Positions 20,919 through 21,155 of a stretch of 32,512 nucleotides of DNA are shown piece after piece. The notes beneath the pieces were generated by a model that was given only the letters and a program-made list of their open reading frames with translations, was not told the DNA's origin and ran no database searches. The stretch covers positions 1 to 32,512 of the forward strand of contig JAGWAD010000012.1 of NCBI GenBank assembly GCA_018302105.1, written 5' to 3'. Positions within the stretch are counted from its first letter, which is position 1. The number at the start of each line of letters is the position of its first letter. The DNA comes from Candidatus Woesearchaeota archaeon (GTDB lineage: Archaea > Nanobdellota > Nanobdellia > SCGC-AAA011-G17 > GW2011-AR18). The position numbers and the translations under genes are program-made.

Positions 20919-20983
20919 AAGATTAAATAGAAATTATAATTTATTAAATGTTTCTTTATTAAAATAAAACGCCAAGGGTGGGA

Positions 20984-21035
20984 CTATCAATCATTAAGAG
21001 GCACTAAGCCATAATCATGATAGTGCTTAATGGTA
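20984..21035 (-). other. tRNA-Ser intron 2 in the T-loop (about 52 nt)
   Basis: Between T-stem strands there are 59 bases instead of 7. The extra part folds into its own stem: CATTAA with TTAATG and GCACTA with TAGTGC, separated by a CTC bulge. TCAA of the T-loop can pair with TTGA at the 3' end of the insert, giving a four-bp helix with bulge-like segments on both sides, roughly a bulge-helix-bulge. The boundaries given assume splicing between positions 59 and 60; the exact cut could shift by one or two bases. Confidence 0.65.
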
Positions 21036-21067
21036 TTTGAACCCACAAGTCCTTTCGGACGCAGGAT

Positions 21068-21081
21068 ATTTACACCATTTT
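21068..21081 (-). other. tRNA-Ser intron 1, canonical position 37/38
   Basis: The 14 bases after A37 must be removed to leave a seven-base anticodon loop. TTGC in the loop can pair with GTAA in the intron (one G-U pair), giving a four-bp helix next to the anticodon stem and a three-base bulge ATA on the 3' side: a bulge-helix-loop substrate for the archaeal tRNA-splicing endonuclease. Cutting in the bulges restores TTGCTAA. Confidence 0.75.
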
Positions 21082-21155
21082 TAGCAATCCTGTGCCATAC
21101 CAGGTTAGGCGACCTTGGCGTCTATAATCCTTAGTTTATATTCCCTATTTAAACC

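Follow-up and report, generated by a model that had tools for sequence, protein, structure and literature searches.

A candidate bulge-helix-bulge intron in the T-loop of a tRNA-Ser(GCU) gene from Woesearchaeota and related introns at position 59/60

The analyzed window, a 32,512-nt stretch of DNA from a Candidatus Woesearchaeota archaeon, contains on its minus strand a class II tRNA-Ser(GCU) gene that is interrupted twice, by 14 nt in the anticodon loop and by 52 nt in the T-loop. The T-loop insert is very probably an archaeal bulge-helix-bulge (BHB) intron at tRNA position 59/60. It interrupts an otherwise intact tRNA, its removal in silico restores that tRNA, and genes for the EndA endonuclease and the RtcB ligase are present in the genome.

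The initial annotation described a class II tRNA-Ser(GCT) in which every stem is perfect, and a base-by-base layout confirmed all of the pairs: 7/7 in the acceptor stem (GCCAAGG/CCUUGGC), 3/3 in the D-stem (GCC/GGC), 5/5 in the anticodon stem (CAGGA/UCCUG), 4/4 in the variable arm (GUCC/GGAC), and 5/5 in the T-stem (GUGGG/CCCAC). Read along the minus strand, the 5′ part of the gene runs GCCAAGG UC GCC UAACCUGGUAU GGC A CAGGA UUGCUA and is followed by intron 1, AAAAUGGUGUAAAU. After intron 1 come A UCCUG CGUCCGAAAGGACUU GUGGG UUCAAA, the 52-nt insert, and U CCCAC CCUUGGC G. The T-loop is 59 nt long instead of 7 (7 + 52), as first annotated, with the insert at exactly 20984-21035. Excision of intron 2 leaves the 7-nt loop UUCAAAU found in intronless orthologues, and the T-loop portion contributed by exon 3 is identical to theirs.

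Table 1. Features of the tRNA-Ser(GCU) gene (positions in the window; intron borders and motif elements are predicted)
Feature	Position	Strand	Basis or remark
Pre-tRNA-Ser(GCU), whole gene, 150 nt	20970..21119	-	5′ end at 21119, discriminator G73 at 20970; stems all paired, gene kept in seven genomes with compensatory changes
Exon 1, tRNA positions 1-37, anticodon GCU	21082..21119	-	Layout; ARAGORN after splicing
Intron 1, 14 nt, canonical position 37/38	21068..21081	-	Sequence reading; ARAGORN i(40,14)
Intron 1 central helix, UUGC (32-35) with GUAA; relatives GCAA or GUAA			Sequence and alignment reading
Exon 2, tRNA positions 38-59, ending in T-stem 5′ strand GUGGG and UUCAAA	21036..21067	-	
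Intron 2, 52 nt, T-loop position 59/60	20984..21035	-	R1/R2 covariance-model matches; splicing restores the tRNA
Exon 3, U60, T-stem CCCAC, acceptor CCUUGGC, G73	20970..20983	-	
BHB central helix, exon strand U54-U55-C56-A57	21038..21041	-	Pairs with intron 3′ end, 108 introns
BHB central helix, intron strand 5′-UGAU-3′	20986..20989	-	U.U mismatch with U54
5′ bulge, A58 A59 then U	21035..21037	-	Putative cut after A59
3′ bulge, AG then U60	20983..20985	-	Putative cut after G; AG|U in 85/108 introns
Candidate TATA-like box UUUAAAUA, ~26 nt upstream of the gene	21145..21153	-	Upstream sequence reading

Neither ARAGORN nor Rfam found the unspliced Ser(GCU) gene in the window. When the T-loop insert alone was removed, ARAGORN called a tRNA-Ser(gct) with a 14-nt intron. 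Removal of predicted introns from a first set of loci gave an ARAGORN tRNA in 36 of 38 cases. For a second set, a tRNA was called over the junction in 57/62 spliced sequences, compared with 1 unspliced sequence and 2/186 sequences of an upstream-shuffled control; ARAGORN isotype labels may be wrong if the anticodon arm is disrupted by additional introns. In the genome to which the window belongs (98% complete), only 11 tRNAs passed the Rfam cut-off. Genomes of this DPANN phylum look poor in tRNAs because standard finders miss genes with T-loop introns, and a short covariance model comprising the T-arm and intron recovers many of the missed genes.

The motif at 59/60 has the T-stem as its outer helix, bulges AA|N and AG|U, and a central helix in which U54-U55-C56-R57 faces the 3′ end of the intron. 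The inner helix begins at the second intron base and contains compensatory changes. This 3-4-3 geometry is accompanied by covariation. Across 12 introns, 93.3% of cells were paired, and the covariation score was 0.304 versus 0.128 for shuffled alignments (0/500); sliding the structure by one to three columns abolished the signal. With 24 distinct model-aligned rows, 94.8% of cells were paired and the score was 0.343 versus 0.127 for shuffled alignments, with two-sided changes at every one of the six inner pairs and at the one between exon base 57 and the intron, although this alignment was fitted to the BHB structure and is hence biased towards it. Among 108 introns, base 57 and its partner were A-U in 104 and G-C in 4, with no exceptions, and C56-G and U55-A were invariant; these introns came from a model favoring the same pairs, and the missing mismatches are partly a selection effect. 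An additional G-C case at base 57, with UUCG facing CGAA, was seen at another locus of the same genome (L232). Pair 54 was U-A in 97 of the 108 introns, and the ten U.U and single C.U combinations all belonged to the window's own family. Thus, one of the four central pairs in the window gene is U.U, and its motif is slightly imperfect, while the general 59/60 motif is a textbook BHB.

The borders of the insert had been noted at the outset for their TCAA/TTGA pairing. It is indeed present, but the BHB and the covariation both point to another register, UUCA (54-57) with UGAU, which includes the U54.U mismatch. An intron bounded differently (such as UUCAAAN|...|CCC, or with a cut shifted by one base), or one removed in a fixed order with intron 1, is very improbable. 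The repeated A/U residues near the 5′ bulge would allow a one-base register shift, TCAA/TTGA forms four Watson-Crick pairs in the window's family, and intron 1 is able to pair with intron 2. Nevertheless, U60 directly follows the intron, before the 3′ T-stem strand, in 108/108 cases; UGAA stands opposite UUCA in other families; and position 59/60 alone gives a 7-nt loop, a pyrimidine at 60, and the same cut in each bulge. The UCAA/UUGA register of the central helix was ruled out by the UGAA of other families and, further, because only 59/60 yields a 7-nt loop with equal cuts.

For an intron at 59/60, the T-stem would serve as the outer helix, U54-U55-C56-R57 and the intron 3′ end 5′-YGAW-3′ would form the four-position central helix, and the inner helix would lie inside the intron. 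A single EndA would cut each 3-nt bulge (A58 A59|N and AG|U60) after its second base, and RtcB would join the exons to give the loop UUCAAAU. Both the cutting and ligation of the RNA and the identity of the enzyme are predicted here from sequence.

The thermodynamic fold of the precursor does not display this motif. The precursor of the window's gene folds more stably than expected by chance (z = -4.8), but its minimum-energy structure differs from the splicing fold: ACUAUCA pairs with UGAUAGU in the naked precursor, and the BHB is not formed. When the T-arm was folded in isolation, the T-stem and inner helix formed and the central helix stayed open. Counting against the intron reading are this fold, the U54.U mismatch in the window's own family, and the enzyme type, for which a preference for strict canonical motifs has been reported (PMC4033280). 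The mid-intron ACUAUCA (window positions 20983-21015 span both elements) is invariant and complementary to the 3′-border UGAUAGU in all seven genomes of the family that carry the insert. Its pairing competes with the splicing fold, and introns of other isotypes are without it. Intron 1 (21068-21081) can also pair with the 5′ end of intron 2 (21028-21035) through AAUGGUGU/AUACCAUU, and similar pairing is possible in most of the seven species. In a swap test, own pairs averaged -5.3 kcal/mol and swapped pairs -4.1 kcal/mol, with 230 of 5040 permutations as good; the result is borderline, and the pairing was dropped as a claim because it is too weak.

To assess conservation, the 150-nt gene was searched against its own genome and 40 relatives. 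The gene, insert included, aligned at 80 to 89% with six genomes of the same family (G002, G003, G006, G007, G008, and G009), so that the T-loop insert occurs at one position in seven Woesearchaeota genomes, its own among them. The alignment contains compensatory changes in the acceptor stem (GCCAAGG/CCUUGGC to GCCGAGG/CCUCGGC) and in the T-stem (GUGGG/CCCAC to GCGGG/CCCGC to GGGGG/CCCCC). Elsewhere in the order, families frequently have a compact Ser(GCU) whose T-loop region reads UUCAAAUCCC, the exact product predicted for splicing at 59/60. The search matched no second Ser(GCU) gene in the 98%-complete genome, which speaks against the decayed copy that another intact gene would have implied, and AGY codons make up 32% of serine codons in the open reading frames of the window. 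It is very improbable that the gene is a decayed copy or pseudogene with its T-loop broken by an insertion while an intact Ser(GCU) elsewhere does the work. The failure of tRNA finders on the unspliced gene would fit decay, but the stems are intact with compensatory changes in seven genomes, no second Ser(GCU) was matched in the genome, AGY codons are in use in the window's open reading frames, and many other isotypes carry the same type of insert. The compensatory changes, the conservation of the insert, and the compact orthologues that match the splice product strongly disfavor decay or an assembly accident.

Just as improbable is a mature tRNA that retains the insert, whether as an extra arm or as a larger T-loop. 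The insert does have a stem of its own. However, the elbow formed by the T-loop and D-loop requires a 7-nt T-loop, the pairing between exon and intron covaries, orthologues without the insert keep exactly UUCAAAU, and relatives have introns of anywhere between 12 and 69 nt at this site. A remnant of a group I intron, a mobile element, or an assembly artefact can practically be discounted: rRNA genes of Woesearchaeota do contain group I introns (PMC6125680), but the insert has only 52 nt, Rfam models matched neither it nor a group I catalytic core within it, and it is present in independent assemblies of several species.

Some members of the family carry further inserts in the same gene. A third insert of ~30 nt lies in the acceptor stem, 3′ of the T-stem and before CGGCG, in Ser(GCU) of G002 (L014/L083) and G003 (L016/L084), making three introns in one gene. 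Ser(GCU) of G009 (L017/L085) has a 21-nt D-loop insert and likewise three introns.

Introns at 59/60 are not restricted to Ser(GCU). The window's own genome contains six clear examples, in Ser(GCU), Ser(UGA), genes called Ile, Cys, and Gly(GCC) by ARAGORN after splicing, and one isotype-ambiguous gene on contig C4. Two weaker examples are on C26 (an Ala-like body that ARAGORN calls Thr) and C28 (a Ser-like body). D-arm or anticodon-arm inserts are present in many of the genome's other tRNA genes (L012, L074-L079). Across the phylum, covariance model R2 matched 104 of 371 genomes and 86 of 259 genera (E ≤ 0.01); its E-values are approximate, some four false matches are to be expected, and strict filters drop weak true ones. 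Four bacterial control genomes gave one match (E = 0.002), a control of little use because these genomes had been chosen via a chance pattern match. A pattern search with TTGATAGTCC had suggested a narrow distribution, limited to the window's own family and one match in G039; this was rejected when the covariance model revealed the wider UGAAAG form. No tRNA surrounds the G039 match, and the same holds for locus L121 of G039, which was dropped.

The 108 introns are 12 to 69 nt long (median, 28 nt). By a simple count, ~67 have the two-sided motif with a 3-nt 5′ bulge, 10 have a 2- or 4-nt bulge, and 31 have no simple inner helix. The shortest introns are of the relaxed hBH type, with a fold made up of the T-stem, a 3-nt bulge, the central helix, and a loop. 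G024 and G065 each have two tRNA-like loci with 12-nt T-loop introns (L117, L118), one locus of each pair having G57-C instead of A57-U. In G094 (L167), neighboring tRNA-Lys and tRNA-Asp genes carry identical T-loop introns, and G006 (L123, L183) has near-identical introns in two genes called Leu and Cys. Such sharing between isotypes resembles the intron transposition described for Thermoproteales (PMC4033280) and suggests recent transposition or conversion. An intron ending in UGAAAG|U would bring its own pairing partner and could settle in any isotype, since UUCR is present in the T-loop of almost all tRNAs; this would fit the spread of the introns across isotypes in the phylum, which may have occurred by transposition.

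Position 59/60 is among the listed noncanonical sites (PMC4090602), and reviews mention BHBs in the T-loop and acceptor stem (PMC6379350). The noncanonical BHB introns of Thermoproteota (PMC4090602, PMC4033280, PMC6379350) share with those described here the 59/60 position, BHB borders, the presence of several per gene, and the occurrence of similar introns in different isotypes within one genome. They differ in that the hosts here are DPANN archaea, Woesearchaeota and members of their phylum, and the enzyme is without CSL; the 3′ consensus UGAAAG|U, derived from DPANN introns, may be a further difference. Within the DPANN, Nanoarchaeum equitans and ARMAN-1/2 were the only archaea previously listed with multi-intron tRNAs (PMC4033280). 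They too have introns away from 37/38, in multi-intron and split tRNAs, but they use (alpha-beta)2 or epsilon2 enzymes, in contrast with the one alpha-type gene found here. A literature search on Woesearchaeota or Pacearchaeota and tRNA introns, with subscription papers mostly outside its reach, returned no account of the 59/60 class. The proposal that prompted this work, a second, T-loop intron with BHB-type borders in a DPANN genome, is supported by comparative sequence analysis. Its claim to widen the known range held in part: multi-intron tRNAs of DPANN were already known, but the phylum-scale extension of 59/60 introns, known from other archaea, to Woesearchaeota and relatives was not found in the literature searched.

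The initial annotation also took the intron to imply a broad-specificity splicing endonuclease, which the genome did not bear out. PF01974 (EndA) matched in 38 of 41 genomes, this one included, with one gene each except for two in G040. The EndA of the window's genome (G000:C23) has ~211 aa and both EndA domains, and a PF01974 search found no second EndA gene there at E ≤ 10. Among solved structures, this protein is closest to the N. equitans alpha subunit and the M. jannaschii alpha4 enzyme (PDB 1a79); the latter is likewise encoded by one gene and has both domains, aligned Tyr/His/Lys, and a loop of nearly equal length. At the CSL/ASL site, the protein has 10 residues, compared with 9 in M. 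jannaschii and A. fulgidus and 19 in the CSL-grafted 3p1y, and neither a CSL (15 to 18 aa) nor an ASL (11 aa) was present. Loops of 9 to 10 residues were found in the other EndA proteins of the phylum wherever they could be parsed. Gene number and homology suggest an alpha4 tetramer; with one alpha-type gene matched, the PF01974 search gave no sign of a two-subunit (alpha-beta)2 or a three-unit epsilon2 endonuclease.

Relaxed BHB introns are reported to be efficiently removed only by (alpha-beta)2 and epsilon2 enzymes, while alpha4 is limited to the canonical BHB (PMC6379350, PMC4033280), and CSL or ASL accompanies diverse introns (PMC12397907). The geometry of the window's T-loop intron is near-strict, and no broad enzyme is needed for it. 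However, the genomes studied here have many introns off 37/38, some of them relaxed, and the relaxed short introns that occur beside a loop-less enzyme (e.g., in G024) do challenge the CSL/ASL rule, barring an undetected subunit or factor. The U.U mismatch showed no clear correlation with EndA loop length. We see an even balance of chances for a broader proposal, in which a single-gene alpha-type EndA lacking CSL and ASL would remove T-loop introns throughout the phylum, including hBH introns of 12 to 16 nt without an inner helix, and the UUCR of the T-loop would be half a splice motif and a landing site. If true, this would break a published rule, under which tRNA introns that are relaxed or diversified require (alpha-beta)2 or epsilon2 enzymes with an extra loop. 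The idea that the diversity of tRNA introns tracks endonuclease type is likewise put to the test by the distribution, as diverse introns occur here beside what is apparently the simplest, loop-less type.

The RtcB ligase gene is at G000:C8. Its match (G000:C8:7572-10394, minus strand) is split near residue 50 by ~500 residues within a 1005-aa frame, which probably represents an intein, and RtcB splits of a similar kind were seen in G012 and G010.
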